From Halococcus sediminicola (lineage in GTDB: Archaea > Halobacteriota > Halobacteria > Halobacteriales > Halococcaceae): DNA of 64,000 nt. Of the stretch, positions 54,280-63,441 are shown in pieces (positions within the stretch are counted from its first letter, which is position 1; every line of letters begins with the position of its first letter). The notes under the pieces are model-generated. The model saw nothing but the letters and a program-made list of their open reading frames with translations, was not told the DNA's origin and made no database searches. A program made the position numbers and the translations under genes. The DNA lies in the NCBI RefSeq assembly GCF_000755245.1, contig NZ_BBMP01000007.1, positions 310,001 through 374,000 of the forward strand, written 5' to 3'.

Positions 54280-55758
54280 GTGCGGCTGGCACACGCCGCC
54301 GACATCCACCTCGGCCACAGACAGTACGACCTCTCACAGCGCGAATCCGACGTCAGGCTTGCTTTCGAGCATTTCCTGAAGAAGACCCGTGAACACGACG
54401 TGACGGCCATCCTGATTCCGGGCGACCTCTTCGATTCGCGCGACGTGAGTCCGAAGACCCTCAAGCGAGCCGAGTCGCTGCTCGCCGACGTCGAGGTGCC
54501 CGTACTCGTCTCGCCGGGCAACCACGACCAGAGCATGAGTACCCGGCGGGAGTTGACGTGGCTGCAGTATCTCAACGACAGCGGTCTCGTCACGCTGCTG
54601 TCGGGAACTCCGCGGGACGAACCAGCGTTCGTCCGGACCGATCTCGCCGAACCACGGCAGGGCGGCGGCGGGTTCGTCGATATCGAGTCGGACGGCGAGA
54701 CGGTGCGCTGTTTCGGCGTGCCGTATCGCGGCGCGTACATCGACACCGACCTCCCGAAGGTCGCCGACGGCATCCGAGCGGTCGAAGAGCGCGAAGGGCC
54801 GGCCGATACGACCGTGTTGCTCGCCCACTTCGGCGTCGACGACGCGGTGCCGGACCTCGGCGCGACCGTCAAGCGCGCGTGGCTGACGCCGATCGAGGAG
54901 CGGGTGGACTACCTCGCGCTCGGCCACATCCACAAACAGTACGAGACCGGAACCGTCGGCCGAAATCCGGGCAGTCTCGAAGCGCTCGACATCCAGGAAG
55001 GCCGGTGGGACGAGGCCCACGGCTACTATGTCTTCGACACCGAGGACGGGACCGCCGAGCACCGCCTCTCGCATCGCCGGCCGTACCACACCATGAGTTT
55101 CGACGTGTCGGACTATCGCACCTTCGAAGACCTCCGCGTCGAGTTCGCGGCGGCGCTCGACGACGAGCGCCCGTCGGTCGAACGCACCTGCGAGCGCGAG
55201 ATTCATTGCGACGGAAACGGCAACCGCCGCGCACCGGTCGTGAACGTGCGCTTCGTCGGTACGCTCCTGCTCGATCACGGGAGCTTCGACGTCGAGGCGC
55301 TGCGCGACCTCGCCGCCGACCGGCTCGATGCCATCCATGTGCAGCCGACGAACAACACCGAGCGCAAGGCCATCGCGGAGCTGCTCGGCGACGTCGAGCG
55401 TGACGAGGCCTTCGACGCCGACGGCACCGTCAATACCGACGTCCTTCAGGAACGGGTTTTCACCACCATCGCGGGCGAATCACGCTACAGCGCCGAGACC
55501 GAGGCCGTAGCGCGGACGCTCGACGAACTCGAAGGACTCGTGACCAACGAGGGCGAGGGCGTGAGCGAGGTCGCCGACTACCTCGGCGAGCGCCGGCGCG
55601 AGCTGTTCCCCGACGGTGCGGCCGAGTCCGGCGACGAGCCGGCGGGTGCGGATGTGGAGACCGGTGATGGCGCGGAGACTGGTGAGACGGCGAGCGACGA
55701 CGCTGCGAGCGAGGGACGGACGAGCCAGCAGACCCTCGACGCGCGGGGAAGCGAATGA
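54280..55758 (+). CDS. mre11: DNA double-strand break repair nuclease Mre11
   Basis: Mn2+-dependent nuclease that trims DNA ends together with Rad50. The 492 residues hold the phosphoesterase motifs in order: D8-I-H10, GDLFDS, SPGNHDQS, and LGHIHKQ. The C-terminal third is acidic and variable (about residues 420-492), longer than in thermophiles. GTG 54280 gives the invariant start RLAHAADIHLG; the frame stays open upstream to 53983, but that covers the divergent promoter. It overlaps rad50 by 4 nt. Confidence 0.95.
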   Translation: MRLAHAADIHLGHRQYDLSQRESDVRLAFEHFLKKTREHDVTAILIPGDLFDSRDVSPKTLKRAESLLADVEVPVLVSPGNHDQSMSTRRELTWLQYLNDSGLVTLLSGTPRDEPAFVRTDLAEPRQGGGGFVDIESDGETVRCFGVPYRGAYIDTDLPKVADGIRAVEEREGPADTTVLLAHFGVDDAVPDLGATVKRAWLTPIEERVDYLALGHIHKQYETGTVGRNPGSLEALDIQEGRWDEAHGYYVFDTEDGTAEHRLSHRRPYHTMSFDVSDYRTFEDLRVEFAAALDDERPSVERTCEREIHCDGNGNRRAPVVNVRFVGTLLLDHGSFDVEALRDLAADRLDAIHVQPTNNTERKAIAELLGDVERDEAFDADGTVNTDVLQERVFTTIAGESRYSAETEAVARTLDELEGLVTNEGEGVSEVADYLGERRRELFPDGAAESGDEPAGADVETGDGAETGETASDDAASEGRTSQQTLDARGSE

Positions 55759-58475
55759 GCATCGTCATCGAGCGGGTGACTCTCGATGGAATCAAGAGCT
55801 ACGGCGAGGAGACGACCATCGACCTCGGGGCGGGCGTGACGGCCATCCTCGGCGACAACGGGGCCGGCAAGAGCACGATCCAGGAGGCCGTCGGTTACGC
55901 GTTGTTCGACAGCCATCCGTTCAGCAATCAGGAACGGCTCGTGCGCGACGGGGAGTCGGCGGGCGAGATCACCGTGACGTTCACCAACCGCGCGACCGAC
56001 GAGGAGTACACGGTGCGTCGGTGGGCCGGCCGGTCGACGTACGAGGTCGAGAACGCCGACGGCGACCGTCTCTCGCTCGACGGGACGAGCGAGATCAAGG
56101 GCTGGCTCTGCGAGCAACTCGGCGTCGGCGACCCCGACGACCTCTCTCAGGTCTGGGAGCGAAGCGTCGGCGTCGCCCAGACCGACTTCCTCGCGGACTT
56201 CACGAAGACCGAGACCGAGCGCATCGACACGTTCGACCCACTGTTCGACATCGAGCGCTACCGCGAAGCCTACAAATCCCTCGGCGGACTCGACGAGGAG
56301 TTCGACGACGACATTCAGGACCACCGCGACGAGATCATCGGTCTCGCGACCAGACTGGAGGACCTTCCGGAGATCAAAGCGCGCGTCGAGGAGTACGAAG
56401 CGAGCATCGAGGAACTGGCCGACGAGATCGAGACGCTGGAAGCGGACATCGAGGAACTGGACGACGAGCGCGAACGCCTCGAAGGAGTCGAGGAGGACCT
56501 CGACGAGGCCGAACGGGAGTTGGCGACGCTCGACGACACGAAGATTCCGGCACAGGAGAAGAGCCTCGACTCCGCGAAGGAGCGCCGCGACGAGGCCAGG
56601 AAAGCCGGCGAGACGCTCGCATCGGTTCGTGAGGGCTACGAGCGCCACGAGGCGGCACAGGACCGTCTCGACGAGTTGCAGGAGCGCCGAAGCGAGCGCG
56701 AGGACCTCGACGACGAGCGCAACGAGGCCGGAAACGAGATCGACTTGCTCAAGCATCGGGTCGCGGAGGCCAAAGACGACCTCTGCGCGGCCGAGCGGGC
56801 ACGCGAGCGGGTGCGCGAACTCGAACCCGAAAAGGAGCGCCACGAGGAGCTCCGGGAGGCGGTGTCGCAGTTGGAGGACGACGCCGAGCGCCTCGACGAG
56901 ATCGAGGATGAACTGGCGGACGTCGACGACGACATCGAGGAGCGACGGGCCGAGGCCGCGGAACGCGAATCGTCCATCGAAGAAGCCGAAGCGCAGCGCG
57001 AGGAGGCCGAAACGCTCGCCGCGCGACAGGACGACCGCCAGGACCTGCTCGCCGAGCGCAAGTCCTTGGAAGCCGAACGCGAGGAACTGCGTGCACAGAA
57101 CGAGGAGTTGCGAGCCATCGACATCGACGATACCGAGGTCTCGTGTCCGACCTGCGACCAGCCCGTGACCGCAGACCACCGCGAGAGCGTCATCGAGCGC
57201 AATCGCGAGCGTATCGAGATGCTCACCGAGGAGCGACTGTCGACCATCGAGGCGGAGATCGAAACCATCGAAGAGCGCATCGAGGCGGCGCGAGAGGCGA
57301 AGGAGGCGACCGACCGGATTCCACAGCTCGAACGCGAACTGGATACCATCGAGGACGACGTCGCCGAACTGGAGGCCGAAAAGAAGGAGTTCGAAGCCGA
57401 GCGCGACGCCCTCGAAACGCGCGTCGAGGAACTGCCCGACAAGCGCGAGGCGATGGCCGACCGCGAGGGCGTGGCAGACGAGTACCACACCGCGAAGGCG
57501 GCCATCGAGAGCGCCGATGGAGCCGCCGAAACGCTCCACGATGCGCGCGATGACCTCGGCGAGCGACTCGTCGCCTATCGGGAATTCGGCGACGAACTCG
57601 CCGACTTCGACGGTCTCGACGACGATATCGAGGCGGCGAAGGAGACCATCGACGAAACCGAGGCCGCCCATCGAACCTACATCCAGAACGAACCCGTCGC
57701 CGAGAGCCTCGACGAGCGACAGGAAACCGTCGAGGAGGAGGGTGAGGCGCTGGCGCGGTTGCGCGCCGAGCGAAAATCGGTCCACGAACGCGTCGCGGAA
57801 CTCGACGAGAAATTCGATGCAGCACAACTCGACGACATCAAGGAGGAATTGAGTGAGCGGCGTGAGACCCGCGCCAAGCGCGAGCAGCAGCGCGAGGACA
57901 GGGAAGAGGACCTCGCGGAGGCACGCAAGCGCCTCGACGACCTCGAAGAAAAGCGCGAGCGGAAGGGTGAGTTGGAGGCGGAGATGAGCGAACTCGAACG
58001 CGATAGAGAATTTGCCCGGTGGGCGCGAACCAGCCTCCAGCAGGGAGCCGAGGACCTCCGCGACCTCACGACCAGCGAGATCGGCGACCGGGCGAACGCC
58101 ATCTATCAGGAACTGCGTGCCGCCCCGACCGAGACGCTGGTCTGGGACAAGACGTACAACCTCCGGGTTCGCGTGCGCGGGCAGAACAAGCCGTTCGATA
58201 CGCTCTCGGGCGGCGAGAAGATGGCCGCGGCACTGTCGGTTCGGCTCGCGGTTCTCGAACGCCTCGCCTCGGTCGGAATGGCGTTTCTCGACGAGCCGAC
58301 CGCGAACCTCGACCGGGGCAAGCGCGAGAACCTCGTGAGCCAACTGGAGCGCTTCGATCAGTTGAACCAGCTGCTCGTCGTCAGCCACGACCGGACCTTC
58401 GAGTCGATGACCGAGCGGGCGGTCGAACTCGAAAAAGACGAGGATCGGGAGCTGACGCGGGTGGTGAGTGACTGA
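55755..58475 (+). CDS. rad50: DNA double-strand break repair ATPase Rad50
   Basis: A 906-residue SMC-like ATPase: Walker A GDNGAGKST (about residues 33-41), long coiled coils, zinc hook CPTC (C464, C467), signature LSGGEK (about 817) and Walker B/D-loop MAFLDEPTANLD (about 841). The coils are extremely acidic and Glu/Arg-rich. The stop overlaps the nurA ATG by one base. Confidence 0.96.
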   Translation: MSIVIERVTLDGIKSYGEETTIDLGAGVTAILGDNGAGKSTIQEAVGYALFDSHPFSNQERLVRDGESAGEITVTFTNRATDEEYTVRRWAGRSTYEVENADGDRLSLDGTSEIKGWLCEQLGVGDPDDLSQVWERSVGVAQTDFLADFTKTETERIDTFDPLFDIERYREAYKSLGGLDEEFDDDIQDHRDEIIGLATRLEDLPEIKARVEEYEASIEELADEIETLEADIEELDDERERLEGVEEDLDEAERELATLDDTKIPAQEKSLDSAKERRDEARKAGETLASVREGYERHEAAQDRLDELQERRSEREDLDDERNEAGNEIDLLKHRVAEAKDDLCAAERARERVRELEPEKERHEELREAVSQLEDDAERLDEIEDELADVDDDIEERRAEAAERESSIEEAEAQREEAETLAARQDDRQDLLAERKSLEAEREELRAQNEELRAIDIDDTEVSCPTCDQPVTADHRESVIERNRERIEMLTEERLSTIEAEIETIEERIEAAREAKEATDRIPQLERELDTIEDDVAELEAEKKEFEAERDALETRVEELPDKREAMADREGVADEYHTAKAAIESADGAAETLHDARDDLGERLVAYREFGDELADFDGLDDDIEAAKETIDETEAAHRTYIQNEPVAESLDERQETVEEEGEALARLRAERKSVHERVAELDEKFDAAQLDDIKEELSERRETRAKREQQREDREEDLAEARKRLDDLEEKRERKGELEAEMSELERDREFARWARTSLQQGAEDLRDLTTSEIGDRANAIYQELRAAPTETLVWDKTYNLRVRVRGQNKPFDTLSGGEKMAAALSVRLAVLERLASVGMAFLDEPTANLDRGKRENLVSQLERFDQLNQLLVVSHDRTFESMTERAVELEKDEDRELTRVVSD

Positions 58476-59701
58476 TGCCGTTCTATCCCGGTGTGGTGGC
58501 GAACGATCTCCAGAACTACACTGAGGAGATCAAAGAATACACTGACGACGAACGGGTCGTGGCGAAATATCGTGATGCATTCGACGATGCGCTCGCGGAA
58601 TATGATGCGGACCGTCTCCGCGAGCGGTTCGACACGAACGCCTATCCCGGCGCGCTGCCGACCGCGGACTGGGACGAGCACGACCGACCGGTCGACCCGT
58701 TCGACATCTCTGCCTCGTGGGAGAACCACGAAGCGATCAATCGGTTCGCGAAAGATGTCCTGGAAGGTGTCACGACTATCGCCGCCGATGGTTCCGAACT
58801 CGGGCCGACGACGGAGTTCACTGTTCCGCTCGGTCTCGTACAGGTCGCGTGGACCGCAAACCATCACGATCCCGATGGTGATTACGACGGTGACGTGGAG
58901 CCCCGAATCCTCGGGCCCGAAGCAGTCACCGAATCATCCGGCGATGGCGACGGTGTCCGGTACCCCGATAAACAGGCCCCGAGCCACGAGCGTTACTACG
59001 ATGAAGGAGCGACGGTCGTCGGGTGTATCAAGAAGTTCGCCGATTACGAGCCGACACCGGTCATCGTCTACGACGGAGCGCTCGTCCCGTCGTTCGCGGA
59101 TACGTATGCGCCGGACGTGCGCGAGAACTACCACGAAACGATGGCGGAGATCCTCGCGGTGAGTGAACATCACGAGGTCCCCGTCGTCGGCTACGTCGCA
59201 GGAACGAAACGAAAGAACATCGCGAAGATGCTGCAGCAGACGTATCCCGAACTGCTCTCCGACGAGCCGACCGTTGCTGACGCACGCATTCTCGATGGGT
59301 TTACCGAGAACTGGGGCGACCGATCGCTGGTGTTCGTCAACAGGTGGGACAGTACGGTCGACGAACTCGAATACGTCTACGAGAACACCGAATACGGCTA
59401 CGAGGAGGAGGTGCTGTTCACGTACCTCGACGTGCCGGGCGGCAGCGCGATGGACTACCTCGAATTCCCCGAGTGGGTCCAGCGCGACGGCTGGACCGAG
59501 CACGTCCTCGACGTCGTTCGCGCTGAGACCGGCGTCGGGCGCGGCTATCCGGAGATCCTCCAGCAGGCCGACGCCAACGCCGTCTTGGACATGGGCGCGA
59601 AAGAGCGGTTCCTCTCGCTCGTCCAGGAATTCGCCGACCAAGAGGATCTGCCGATCGAATGGGACGCGAAGACGCTCAGTAAGGAGCGACGACGCCGATG
59701 A
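58475..59701 (+). CDS. nurA: NurA 5'-3' nuclease
   Basis: A 408-residue RNase H-like nuclease that works with the HerA motor in end resection. Visible conserved acidic sites are IAADGSELG and VIVYDGALVPSFADTY; VPVVGYVAGTKRKNIAKML and the late DGWTEHVLDVVRAETGVGRGYPEILQQADANAVL segment fit the family. The protein is acidic. It sits fourth-from-last in the mre11-rad50-nurA-orf-herA operon, with 4-nt overlap to the next gene. Confidence 0.88.
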   Translation: MPFYPGVVANDLQNYTEEIKEYTDDERVVAKYRDAFDDALAEYDADRLRERFDTNAYPGALPTADWDEHDRPVDPFDISASWENHEAINRFAKDVLEGVTTIAADGSELGPTTEFTVPLGLVQVAWTANHHDPDGDYDGDVEPRILGPEAVTESSGDGDGVRYPDKQAPSHERYYDEGATVVGCIKKFADYEPTPVIVYDGALVPSFADTYAPDVRENYHETMAEILAVSEHHEVPVVGYVAGTKRKNIAKMLQQTYPELLSDEPTVADARILDGFTENWGDRSLVFVNRWDSTVDELEYVYENTEYGYEEEVLFTYLDVPGGSAMDYLEFPEWVQRDGWTEHVLDVVRAETGVGRGYPEILQQADANAVLDMGAKERFLSLVQEFADQEDLPIEWDAKTLSKERRRR

Positions 59702-60387
59702 GCAGCGAATTCGGCCACAAAGATCAGACAGCTATGACAGTCGACGAACCGGTCATCGGTGACGATGACCTCACGATTGCCAGTATCGTCCAGTCGAACG
59801 GCCAGATGGACTACGTCGCAGAGGTGTACCGCGACCACGAGCGCGAGCGGGTCCCCGAAAAACAGGACTACGAGTTCGGCCAGCCTGTGTACGCCAAAAC
59901 GACGGTGCACGGCGAGGAGCGCGCGCTCGTCGGCGTCGTCTACGAGTCGCTGCTCGTCAATCCCGACCAAGGCCGCGACGGGCCGCGGCTCTCGACCCCG
60001 GATCAGGAACTGTTCGTGCCGGGTTACGTCGACGAGAAGCAGACGCTGCTCGGCATCGCGCTGCTCGGGTCCGCCGAACTGACGCCGGTCGAGGGTGGGC
60101 AGGGATTCGCGTCGGTGTCCCAGGAGCTGCCGCGGTGGACGCTCGATATCGACGATTCGGTGTCGAAGCTCTCCGACGCCGGCTTCCGACGATTTCACCG
60201 GCCCGACGGGCAGTTCGCGCTGCGATACTACGACCGGCTCGTCGCCACCGCCGAGCGGTTCGGTGCGGAGGTGACGCTCTCGCTGATCGAACGACTGCGC
60301 GCGGAGACCGAGCAGGAAGCGATGCTCGACGTCATCGAGCGGAAGGTCCGCTGGGAGACCAGTTCCGATAGAGGGGTGATTCGGTGA
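59698..60387 (+). CDS. HAS-barrel-like accessory protein between nurA and herA
   Basis: A 229-residue protein with no catalytic motif. Residues about 20-100 (LTIASIVQSNGQMDYVAEVY, then FGQPVYAKTTVHGEERALVGVVYESLL) look like the small beta-barrel (HAS-barrel) that HerA-type motors carry at their N-terminus; the C-terminal half is helical (LPRWTLDIDDSVSKL, RYYDRLVATAERFGAEVTLSLIERL). ATGA/GTGA overlaps on both sides tie it to nurA and herA. It may bridge motor and nuclease or replace part of the ring interface (inference). HerA here still has its own barrel. Confidence 0.75.
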   Translation: MSSEFGHKDQTAMTVDEPVIGDDDLTIASIVQSNGQMDYVAEVYRDHERERVPEKQDYEFGQPVYAKTTVHGEERALVGVVYESLLVNPDQGRDGPRLSTPDQELFVPGYVDEKQTLLGIALLGSAELTPVEGGQGFASVSQELPRWTLDIDDSVSKLSDAGFRRFHRPDGQFALRYYDRLVATAERFGAEVTLSLIERLRAETEQEAMLDVIERKVRWETSSDRGVIR

Positions 60388-62039
60388 GCGACGTGCCCGA
60401 ACCACCCACGAGTCGCGGGATGGACGCCGCCTCCGAGACCGTGGTCGGCACGGTGGCCGAACCCGGCGAGGGCGCCGACGAGTTCGTGTTCGTCGCGCCG
60501 AACACGGTCGAGGTTCGAACCGGCGAGTTCGTCGTCTACGAGACGACCGTCGAGGGTGAATCCCGCGACGTGCTCGCCCGCGTCACGAACGCCGAGCAGG
60601 AGCGCGGGCTACCCGGCGAGTTCCTCGCCGATCCGGGTGTGGAGCCGGAGACCGTCGCGGACGCGCTCGGCGTGCCGAACGGTAACGTCGAGATCGACCG
60701 CGTGACCGCGCGCGTCGTCGGTTACTTCGATGCGGAGATGGCGACCTTCGCCAACCCGCGCTCGCTGCCCGACCCCGGTTCGCGCGTCGCGCTCGCAAAC
60801 GACGAGTTTCTGGAGGCGGTGCTCCCGGCCGCGGACTGGGAAGATGAGAGCGCCACCGCCCACGTCGGCTGGCTGCTCAACCGCGAGACGAAGGCTGCGA
60901 ACGTCTTCATGCCCATCGATTCGTTCGCCGCGACACACCTCGCGGTGCTCGCCTCGACGGGGAGCGGGAAGTCCTACACCGCGAGCGTCGTCATCGAGGA
61001 GATGCTGCGCCCGCAGTCGCGGGCCGCGATGTGCGTCTTCGACCCGCACGGCGAGTACGACACCCTCGACGGGATGCGAAAGGACGGGCATGCCTCGGTG
61101 TTTCAGGACGGGGCGTACACGCCCGAGGTCAACGTCGTCACGCCCGACGAGATCACCGTTGCGATCCCCGACCTGAACTACGGCGACCTGCTGTCGTTCC
61201 TCGACAAGCCGAGCGACAAGATGAAGTATCTCCTCCAGCAGGCGTGGCGTGCGCTCCAGCGCGATAGCAACCAGATCAGCGTTCGTGACATCACCTCCAA
61301 ATGCTACGAGATCGACGGACAGGATAGCGACACGGCCGGAGCACTCGAATGGCGGCTCAATCGTGCGCTCGATCGCGATCTGTTCGCCAGCGCGGCGCGC
61401 AACGATCTCACCGATCTCGTCGCGCCGGGACAGGTGACGATCCTCCAGTTGAACCGCCTCTCGGAGGACGACCAGCAGATGCTTGCGGCCGCGCTGCTCC
61501 GGAAACTCTACGAGGCGCGCAAGGACGCGATGCGTGGCGACGGCGACGATCTCGACTTCCCGCTGTTCACGCTGCTGGAGGAGGGCCATCGCTTCGCGCC
61601 GGACGGCAGCGCCCGCTCGCTGCCGATTCTGCGGACCATCCTCTCGGAGGGTCGAAAATTCGGGTTCGGTGTGGGCATCATCTCACAGCGGCCCTCGAAG
61701 CTCGACGCCGACGTGCTCTCGCAGTGTGGCACGCAGATCATCATGCAGATCCAGAACCCGAACGACCAGCAGGCGATCCGCCAATCGGTCGAGAGCGCTG
61801 GCGAGGACGTGCTTGACGAACTTCCGGGGCTGACGCCCGGACAGGCCGTCATCGCCGGTGACGCGATGAACACACCAGTACTGACCCGGATTCGTGAGCG
61901 CCACACGCGCCACGGGGCCGAGAGTCTCGATGCAACCAGCGAGTGGCGCGATAGCTGGGAATCCTGGCACGCGGAGCGCAATCGTGGCGTGGTCGATCCG
62001 TACGAATCCGACGAGGAAGTGGACGAGACGCCGCTGTGA
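60384..62039 (+). CDS. herA: HerA hexameric DNA translocase
   Basis: A 551-residue FtsK/HerA-type ATPase. The N-terminal HAS-barrel (residues about 20-150) precedes Walker A STGSGKSYT (about 191-199), Walker B MCVFDPHGEYD, the late LLEEGHRFAP segment, and QRPSKLDADVLSQCGTQIIMQIQNPNDQQAIRQ, all typical of DUF87/HerA. It pumps DNA to NurA. GTG 60384 overlaps the previous stop by 4 nt. Last gene of the five-gene operon. Confidence 0.9.
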   Translation: MSDVPEPPTSRGMDAASETVVGTVAEPGEGADEFVFVAPNTVEVRTGEFVVYETTVEGESRDVLARVTNAEQERGLPGEFLADPGVEPETVADALGVPNGNVEIDRVTARVVGYFDAEMATFANPRSLPDPGSRVALANDEFLEAVLPAADWEDESATAHVGWLLNRETKAANVFMPIDSFAATHLAVLASTGSGKSYTASVVIEEMLRPQSRAAMCVFDPHGEYDTLDGMRKDGHASVFQDGAYTPEVNVVTPDEITVAIPDLNYGDLLSFLDKPSDKMKYLLQQAWRALQRDSNQISVRDITSKCYEIDGQDSDTAGALEWRLNRALDRDLFASAARNDLTDLVAPGQVTILQLNRLSEDDQQMLAAALLRKLYEARKDAMRGDGDDLDFPLFTLLEEGHRFAPDGSARSLPILRTILSEGRKFGFGVGIISQRPSKLDADVLSQCGTQIIMQIQNPNDQQAIRQSVESAGEDVLDELPGLTPGQAVIAGDAMNTPVLTRIRERHTRHGAESLDATSEWRDSWESWHAERNRGVVDPYESDEEVDETPL

Positions 62040-62095: not shown

Positions 62096-63160
62096 ATGGA
62101 TGAGAGCGACGTAGCGGCGTACGTCGAACGGTCGGAGCCACTCATCGAATCATCGCCGCAGATGGATGAGCAGAACACGAAGGCGAAACTCATCAGACCA
62201 CTGATCGAACTGCTTGGCTGGGACGTGTATTCTTCGGAAGTCGAACTCGAATATTCGATGCAGATCGGCCGTGGGAACACGCGGGCGGACTACGCCCTCA
62301 TACTGGAAGGAGCACCGGTCGTATTCATCGAAGCCAAAGGATGTGATAGCGCGCTGACTGATTCCGACAGGAAACAGTTGGCGAGTTACATGCGACAGAC
62401 CGGTGTCGATTGGGGACTGCTGACGAACGGAACCACCTTCGAGATACTGAAACGGCGAACGGACAGCAATCGTCCGGAGGAAATCCTGTTGGGTTCGTTC
62501 ACGCTTACGGAACTCGCCGAGAATCGAGAGCTACTCGAACTTCTCTCGAAAGAACTCGTCGAATCGGGTGAAGCGAACAGTATCGCCGAACGCATGGAAA
62601 CGACGAGAAACGCCGTCCGAACACTTCGGAGCGAAAAGGAACGCATCGCTGAGCGAGTGACGCAAGTCGTCACGGATGAAATAGGCGACATTCCAGCACA
62701 GGAGATTCAGGCTGTATCGAAGGAATATATCGACGAGCTGGCTAATACGCTTGAAAGTGCGAGCGATGTGCAGGGAGAGCACAAGCACGACGGCGGAGAG
62801 CGACACGACGAGGCCGAAAGCGAATCGCAGTACATGATTACACTCGTCGATAACGAGACAGTTGTCGAAACGTTTAGTGAACCAAATCAAAGTGCGGTGA
62901 TGGCTGCTGCTGTCGATCATCTCATTTCTGAACGGGCGTTGCTGGACGAGATCGAGTCGCTTCCATACGTTCCAGGCGAAAAGAACGCACTTCTCAATAC
63001 TGAACCGCGTCATCCATCTGGACGTGAAATGAATACATACAGACCGGTTTCTGACGACTACTACGTCTTCACGAGTTTGAATCGCGAGGCGAAACAGCGC
63101 TATGTTGAGCAGTTTGCAGAGCGCTGTGGACTCACCGCTGAATTTGATGGACTCTGGTGA
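62096..63160 (+). CDS. HsdR N-terminal-type restriction endonuclease-like protein
   Basis: A 354-residue protein whose first 150 residues match the HsdR_N/type I restriction nuclease fold: KLIRPLIELLGWDVYSSEVELEYS then RADYALILEGAPVVFIEAKG, with the PD-(D/E)XK residues D65, E79 and K81. A helical, coiled-coil-like region follows (about 150-230) and a separate C-terminal domain (from about 255, ending FTSLNREAKQRYVEQFAERCGL). No helicase, methylase or specificity subunit is nearby. Base composition is clearly AT-richer than the herA operon. Probable acquired nuclease, role unknown. Confidence 0.8.
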   Translation: MDESDVAAYVERSEPLIESSPQMDEQNTKAKLIRPLIELLGWDVYSSEVELEYSMQIGRGNTRADYALILEGAPVVFIEAKGCDSALTDSDRKQLASYMRQTGVDWGLLTNGTTFEILKRRTDSNRPEEILLGSFTLTELAENRELLELLSKELVESGEANSIAERMETTRNAVRTLRSEKERIAERVTQVVTDEIGDIPAQEIQAVSKEYIDELANTLESASDVQGEHKHDGGERHDEAESESQYMITLVDNETVVETFSEPNQSAVMAAAVDHLISERALLDEIESLPYVPGEKNALLNTEPRHPSGREMNTYRPVSDDYYVFTSLNREAKQRYVEQFAERCGLTAEFDGLW

Positions 63161-63366: not shown

Positions 63367-63441
63367 TGGGTCGGGGCGGATTTGAACCGCCGACTTCCTC
63401 CGTGTGAAGGAGGTATCATAACCAGCCTAGATCACCGACCC
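63367..63441 (-). tRNA. tRNA-Val (CAC)
   Basis: A 75-nt cloverleaf on the minus strand. GGGTCGG pairs with CCGACCC, discriminator A. The anticodon stem CCTCC/GGAGG holds loop TTCACAC with anticodon CAC. The T arm reads GGCGGTTCAAATCCGCC. No intron. A TATA-like GTTTATC lies about 30 bp upstream (63468-63474). Confidence 0.92.

Follow-up and report, generated by a model that had tools for sequence, protein, structure and literature searches.

A five-gene end-resection operon with an additional subunit candidate

In the 64,000-nucleotide stretch of Halococcus sediminicola DNA analysed here (contig NZ_BBMP01000007.1, positions 310,001 to 374,000 of the forward strand; hereafter the window), the genes mre11, rad50, nurA and herA form an operon with a fifth gene, referred to as X, which lies between nurA and herA and encodes a protein of 229 residues. 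X has probably been overlooked as a component of one form of the archaeal end-resection machine. On balance, we favour the reading that it is a dedicated structural subunit of the HerA-NurA machine encoded by such operons (X-type), helping to dock NurA on the crown of HerA barrels. The genome has two end-resection operons, of which the one in the window is the second, divergent and less common. Its features, in window coordinates, are as follows.

54280 to 55758, + strand: mre11, X-type, 492 residues; Metallophos match (E 3e-14), motifs DIHLG, GDLFD, GNHD and GHIH
55755 to 58475, + strand: rad50, X-type, 906 residues; AAA_23 (Rad50-type) match (E 1e-21), Walker A, CPTC hook, LSGGE signature and LDEP
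58475 to 59701, + strand: nurA, X-type, 408 residues; PF09376 match (E 3e-23), predicted model with a predicted local distance difference test score (pLDDT) of 88
59698 to 60387, + strand: gene X, fifth subunit candidate, 229 residues; predicted stand-alone HAS-type barrel with C-terminal helices
60384 to 62039, + strand: herA, X-type, 551 residues, GTG start; DUF87 match in the central domain (E 2e-34)
60435 to 60803, + strand: HerA's own HAS barrel, about residues 18-140; weak PF09378 match (E 0.003), profile-profile alignment

As the sequence-only reading of this DNA had described, all five open reading frames lie on the + strand and overlap, by 4 (mre11/rad50), 1 (rad50/nurA), 4 (nurA/X) and 4 (X/herA) nucleotides. 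The start codon of mre11 is GTG, with GAGG upstream. Since the order with its overlaps recurs in 27 of 27 complete haloarchaeal loci and in non-haloarchaeal loci, the arrangement is more than chance. The catalytic and ATPase motifs were complete in all four known proteins. The window NurA passed the PF09376 cut-off (83 against 21 bits), its model resembled NurA of P. furiosus and further RNase H/PIWI-like folds in structure comparison, and the window HerA passed that of DUF87 (120 against 23.2 bits). However, Mre11 scored only 55 bits against the haloarchaeal Mre11 equivalog NF041030, below the 550-bit cut-off, and HerA only 182.8 bits against the HerA equivalog NF040819, below the 970-bit cut-off.

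X is predicted to be a stand-alone relative of the HerA N-terminal region

Searches of Pfam, NCBIfam and PADLOC gave no significant match for X. Public plasmid records list it as a 'hypothetical protein', flanked by NurA on one side and by a DUF87 or ATP-binding protein on the other. An AlphaFold2 model of X was built from an alignment of 30 relatives (pLDDT 82; predicted template modelling score 0.77). It consisted of six to seven strands arranged as a barrel, followed by helices, and the parts of X discussed below are the following.

59767 to 60120, + strand: barrel, residues 24-141; strands 26-33, 38-43, 63-70, 73-87, 115-131 and 134-141 in the AlphaFold2 model
59959 to 60036, + strand: residues 88-113, counterpart of the HAS segment with alpha1; haloarchaeal conservation peak, low pLDDT in the protein alone
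60193 to 60228, + strand: motif FHxxDGxxxxxY, residues 166-177; conservation peak over the whole X family
60229 to 60369, + strand: C-terminal helices, residues 178-224, in the AlphaFold2 model, where HerA has its ATPase domain

When the model was compared with the PDB by Foldseek, the best 37 matches were all HerA-family chains (E from 4.7e-5, probability 1.00), and by this comparison the predicted model has the HAS barrel fold. The proposal that X is a stand-alone barrel like that of HerA was thus supported by all 37 of these top matches, and a broad X profile also matched the HerA N-terminal profile in profile-profile comparison (P 5.6e-5), with a probability of only 66%. The profile of the close relatives gave no sequence link to HerA, and distant relatives were needed for one. 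Neither the window X nor its close relatives matched PF09378 (cut-off 25.2 bits); the best distant relative reached 20.1 bits, below the cut-off, and some distant members had an E of 7e-4. X is not a HerA: it has 229 residues with short helices at its end, no match to DUF87 and no P-loop ATPase. The reading that best fits the model and the profiles is that X is related to the HerA N-terminal region but has no motor. The N-terminal domain of the primase large subunit, PriL, was rejected as a match for the C-terminal half of X, as the hit to 2dla (E 0.019) was obtained with close relatives only and was lost with the broad profile.

The best conserved segment of haloarchaeal X is residues 88-113 (3.45 bits against a mean of 2.93), with the consensus DPDQGRxGPRLxxxDQxxFxPGYVxE. 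It lies between barrel strands and aligns, in an approximate register, with the HerA segment that holds the NurA contacts. In the T. kodakarensis HerA-NurA complex, these contacts are in the HAS alpha1 helices and the preceding loops, at Trp76, Leu77, Asp91 and Tyr95 (PMC12977600). In the single-chain model of X, the pLDDT was near 50 across much of the segment. Such a conserved segment of low pLDDT is as expected of a loop that is ordered by a partner. Since the segment both matches the NurA-contact segment of HerA and is of low confidence in the protein alone, we favour X as a subunit that docks or positions NurA.

Alternatively, X may handle DNA, its small barrel binding DNA at the exit of the ring (in strand separation, or in end or single-stranded DNA binding) rather than bridging proteins. 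In HerA, DNA leaves through a pore formed by the HAS ring (PMC9960219), which would suit such a role. However, the family-wide conservation peak, FHxxDGxxxxxY, is not basic, and the haloarchaeal peak is a polar loop, DPDQGRxGPRL, which is the counterpart of a protein-docking segment in HerA. We consider a DNA-handling X unlikely.

X accompanies one HerA clade and its NurA

After removal of one spurious match of the first scan, that in G140, which is not X, the gene was found in 30 of 292 haloarchaeal genomes (approximately 10%). The X-type NurA was present in exactly the same 30 genomes. Outside the haloarchaea, a profile search recovered X from 41 further genomes of the phylum, Archaeoglobaceae- and Methanocella-type ones among them, several of which we take to be Geoglobus, Ferroglobus, Archaeoglobus veneficus, A. 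sulfaticallidus and Methanocella. Wherever the operon was whole in these genomes, the order was again mre11-rad50-nurA-X-herA. NurA occurred in 54 of 54 X genomes of the phylum, and X never occurred without it. The X-type HerA was present in the 41 non-haloarchaeal genomes, being fragmentary or unseen in two incomplete ones. When 62 HerA proteins were placed in a tree, the 48 rows from X-bearing genomes all fell together, save for one very long-branched row without X, whose placement is uncertain. Judged from these sequences, X tracks one HerA clade.

The suggested link of X to HerA and NurA is therefore supported by strict phyletic and gene-order linkage. Two parts of the suggestion did not stand. 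X had been placed in halophiles, whereas it is carried by only the 30 haloarchaeal genomes above, in most of them by a second operon, and equally by Archaeoglobaceae- and Methanocella-type genomes. It had also been called a missing adaptor; since many genomes, and the canonical operon of this very genome, carry nurA and herA without X, NurA-HerA in general is independent of it, and the X-type alone would depend on it.

Within the X-type, independent loss of X from genomes that keep both partners would have spoken against the adaptor proposal, and no demonstrable case was found. Four X-type nurA loci had no detected X; in three of them nurA lay at a contig end, and the fourth was in an incomplete genome of a genus in which X is unlinked. 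This result, together with residues that are invariant across distant lineages, argues against X being a relic or a neutral hitch-hiker in the operon. The absence of X from many NurA-HerA systems would fit a relic, but we regard this explanation as highly improbable.

The two junctions of X behaved differently. In the haloarchaeal loci, X and herA nearly always overlapped by 1-4 nucleotides, whereas the gap between nurA and X varied from -4 to 169 nucleotides. This pattern, and the resemblance of X to a motor-less HerA N-terminal region, would agree with X regulating or chaperoning the assembly of the HerA ring. Produced just ahead of HerA through coupled translation, such a HAS mimic would cap or seed the hexamer and stay outside the working NurA complex. 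Nevertheless, in broken operons X remained beside nurA in 10 genomes, against a single genome in which it kept herA alone, and the HerA types that lack X form rings without such a factor. An assembly factor thus appears rather improbable. Among the 41 non-haloarchaeal genomes, X lay within 400 nucleotides of nurA in 34 and adjoined herA in 27.

In two Methanocella-type genomes, 1.2-1.9 kb of extra DNA stood between nurA and X (L107 10400-11604 and L112 7992-9932). It holds open reading frames on the strand opposite to the operon, while the X-herA junction remains tight.

A proposed role for X in the HerA-NurA machine

In the machine that we propose, Mre11-Rad50 would open the break, a HerA hexamer would pump the duplex, and a NurA dimer would sit atop the ring formed by the HAS barrels. 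X would pack on or between the HAS barrels of HerA and present its conserved 88-113 segment to NurA, by which the nuclease may be fixed, oriented or gated above the exit pore. It is from the operon, the predicted fold, the co-occurrence, the linkage and the clade that we infer a physical contact, a position in the complex and an effect on activity. A wider reading, which we put forward tentatively, would make this hitherto unrecognised fifth subunit the mark of an old and separate branch of archaeal end resection, in which a motor-less HerA paralogue would dock or gate NurA within a mixed barrel crown.

Several observations weigh against a docking subunit. A HAS barrel is already part of HerA itself, and numerous NurA-HerA pairs do without X. 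Small beta barrels are common, and the fold by itself is no proof of a docking role. The template modelling scores of the X model against HerA were low, at 0.27-0.39 of X, which is accounted for by the barrel alone being common to both. The 10 split operons all belong to one family and perhaps reflect few events, and in genus g117 (L113-L116) X stands apart from both nurA and herA, among neighbours that may point to a different partner. Moreover, mirror-tree distance correlations singled out neither NurA nor HerA as the partner of X (partial r 0.11 and -0.06).

The canonical operon of the same genome and the surroundings of X

The same genome was found to hold another complete mre11-rad50-nurA-herA operon (G000:C3, which is L039, 5181-13203), which belongs to the canonical haloarchaeal type and lacks X. 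Its NurA was too divergent from the window NurA for BLASTP to pair the two, and its HerA was about 25% identical to the window HerA over the aligned part. Its Mre11 scored 306.5 bits on NF041030, against 55 for the window Mre11. The closest named matches to the genome carrying the window operon were Halococcus thailandensis and H. morrhuae, at 86% identity. The herA and mre11 families have been inferred to have been replaced in the transition from methanogens to halophiles (PMC7599335). The pattern seen here, of an old X-type operon and of another, canonical set that most haloarchaea carry, fits this inference (PMC7599335).

Haloarchaeal copies of X are patchy, and some lie on large plasmids. 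In the set of loci examined for their flanks (A5), the neighbours included genes for Argonaute, CARF-HEPN, IetA, McrBC, type II methyltransferases and restriction-type proteins, as seen without a control set, and this defence-type neighbourhood is a lead only. Beside the operon in the window itself, an HSDR_N-type nuclease gene (type I restriction R N-terminus) lies at 62096-63160 (+), about 56 nucleotides past herA; it was not a constant neighbour among the relatives examined. A tRNA gene follows at 63367-63441 (-), just downstream of the operon region. Downstream of herA in L048, L055, L056, L059, L061 and L062, a neighbour of approximately 760 residues recurs, beginning MDEL/ITANISFDKFADMPEFYGSG; its L061 copy had no Pfam or PADLOC match.

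These surroundings bear on a further alternative, namely that the haloarchaeal X-type operon is an accessory anti-virus, anti-plasmid or mobile-element system rather than general repair, with X as one part of it. The carriage of the operon by only about a tenth of haloarchaea, the copies on megaplasmids, the neighbours listed above (from Argonaute to HSDR_N) and the further NurA gene in 11 of the 13 X-bearing haloarchaea of the phylum sample would all be consistent with it. HerA-nuclease pairs also serve bacterial defence, and a defence role has been raised for HerA-NurA by the T. kodakarensis authors (PMC12977600). However, Archaeoglobaceae-type genomes usually have the X-type NurA as the sole NurA found, and no X relative was detected in phage genomes or viral contigs. 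We hold an accessory system to be unlikely. A viral origin of X was rejected, as there was neither a phage or viral-contig match nor a confident viral fold.

Relation to published work and significance

Archaeal end resection has been described with four proteins, and nurA and herA were considered absent or not apparent in halophiles or H. volcanii in a review of H. volcanii and in a 2026 T. kodakarensis paper (PMC7776575, PMC12977600). Contrary to the published absence of nurA, H. volcanii had a PF09376 match, as did 80 of the 81 haloarchaeal genomes that were sampled. The sequence-only reading knew of no described role for X, and likewise no description of X was found in the open-access literature; older papers (Constantinesco 2004, Iyer 2004) may mention the gene.

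A second, five-gene version of end resection, with an unstudied subunit, is kept across Archaeoglobaceae-type, Methanocella-type and haloarchaeal genomes. Reconstitution of HerA-NurA from an X-type lineage without X may fail or mislead, and X may offer a small, testable means of studying the coupling between a nuclease and a hexameric DNA pump.

Comparison with known systems

The HAS barrel of HerA (PF09378), as in T. kodakarensis (9x1l), S. solfataricus (4d2i) and D. radiodurans (7wrx), has the fold predicted for X, and the two align colinearly over the barrel and the linker after it. However, the HerA barrel is fused to a P-loop ATPase, whereas X is stand-alone, ends in helices instead and falls below the Pfam cut-off in sequence. 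The canonical haloarchaeal operon of this genome has its four genes in the same order as the window operon, but it lacks X, and its NurA and HerA are divergent from those of the window.

The thermophile operon herA-mre11-rad50-nurA, of which A. fulgidus is presumably one bearer, unites the same four enzyme families as the X-type. It differs in its gene order, in a separate HerA clade, in an extra helical insertion in NurA and in the absence of X. The insertion, of approximately 60 residues, was seen in thermophile-type NurA (L128-L135) and not in X-type NurA (L110-L127), which in Archaeoglobaceae is only about 285-340 residues long. The lack of the insertion would fit the contrast between thermophile type and X-type, but it was rejected as the reason for X, as the canonical haloarchaeal NurA is without both the insertion and X.

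In the bacterial defence systems HerA-Sir2 and HerA-DUF4297, HerA is paired with a nuclease or another effector, as it is with NurA in the X-type. Unlike the X-type, these systems have two genes, other partners and no stand-alone barrel. Structures of such complexes were among the Foldseek matches of X. If our reading of X is true, the proposed mixed crown of HerA and X barrels would be comparable to the ATP synthase, with its mixed ring of catalytic and non-catalytic subunits.
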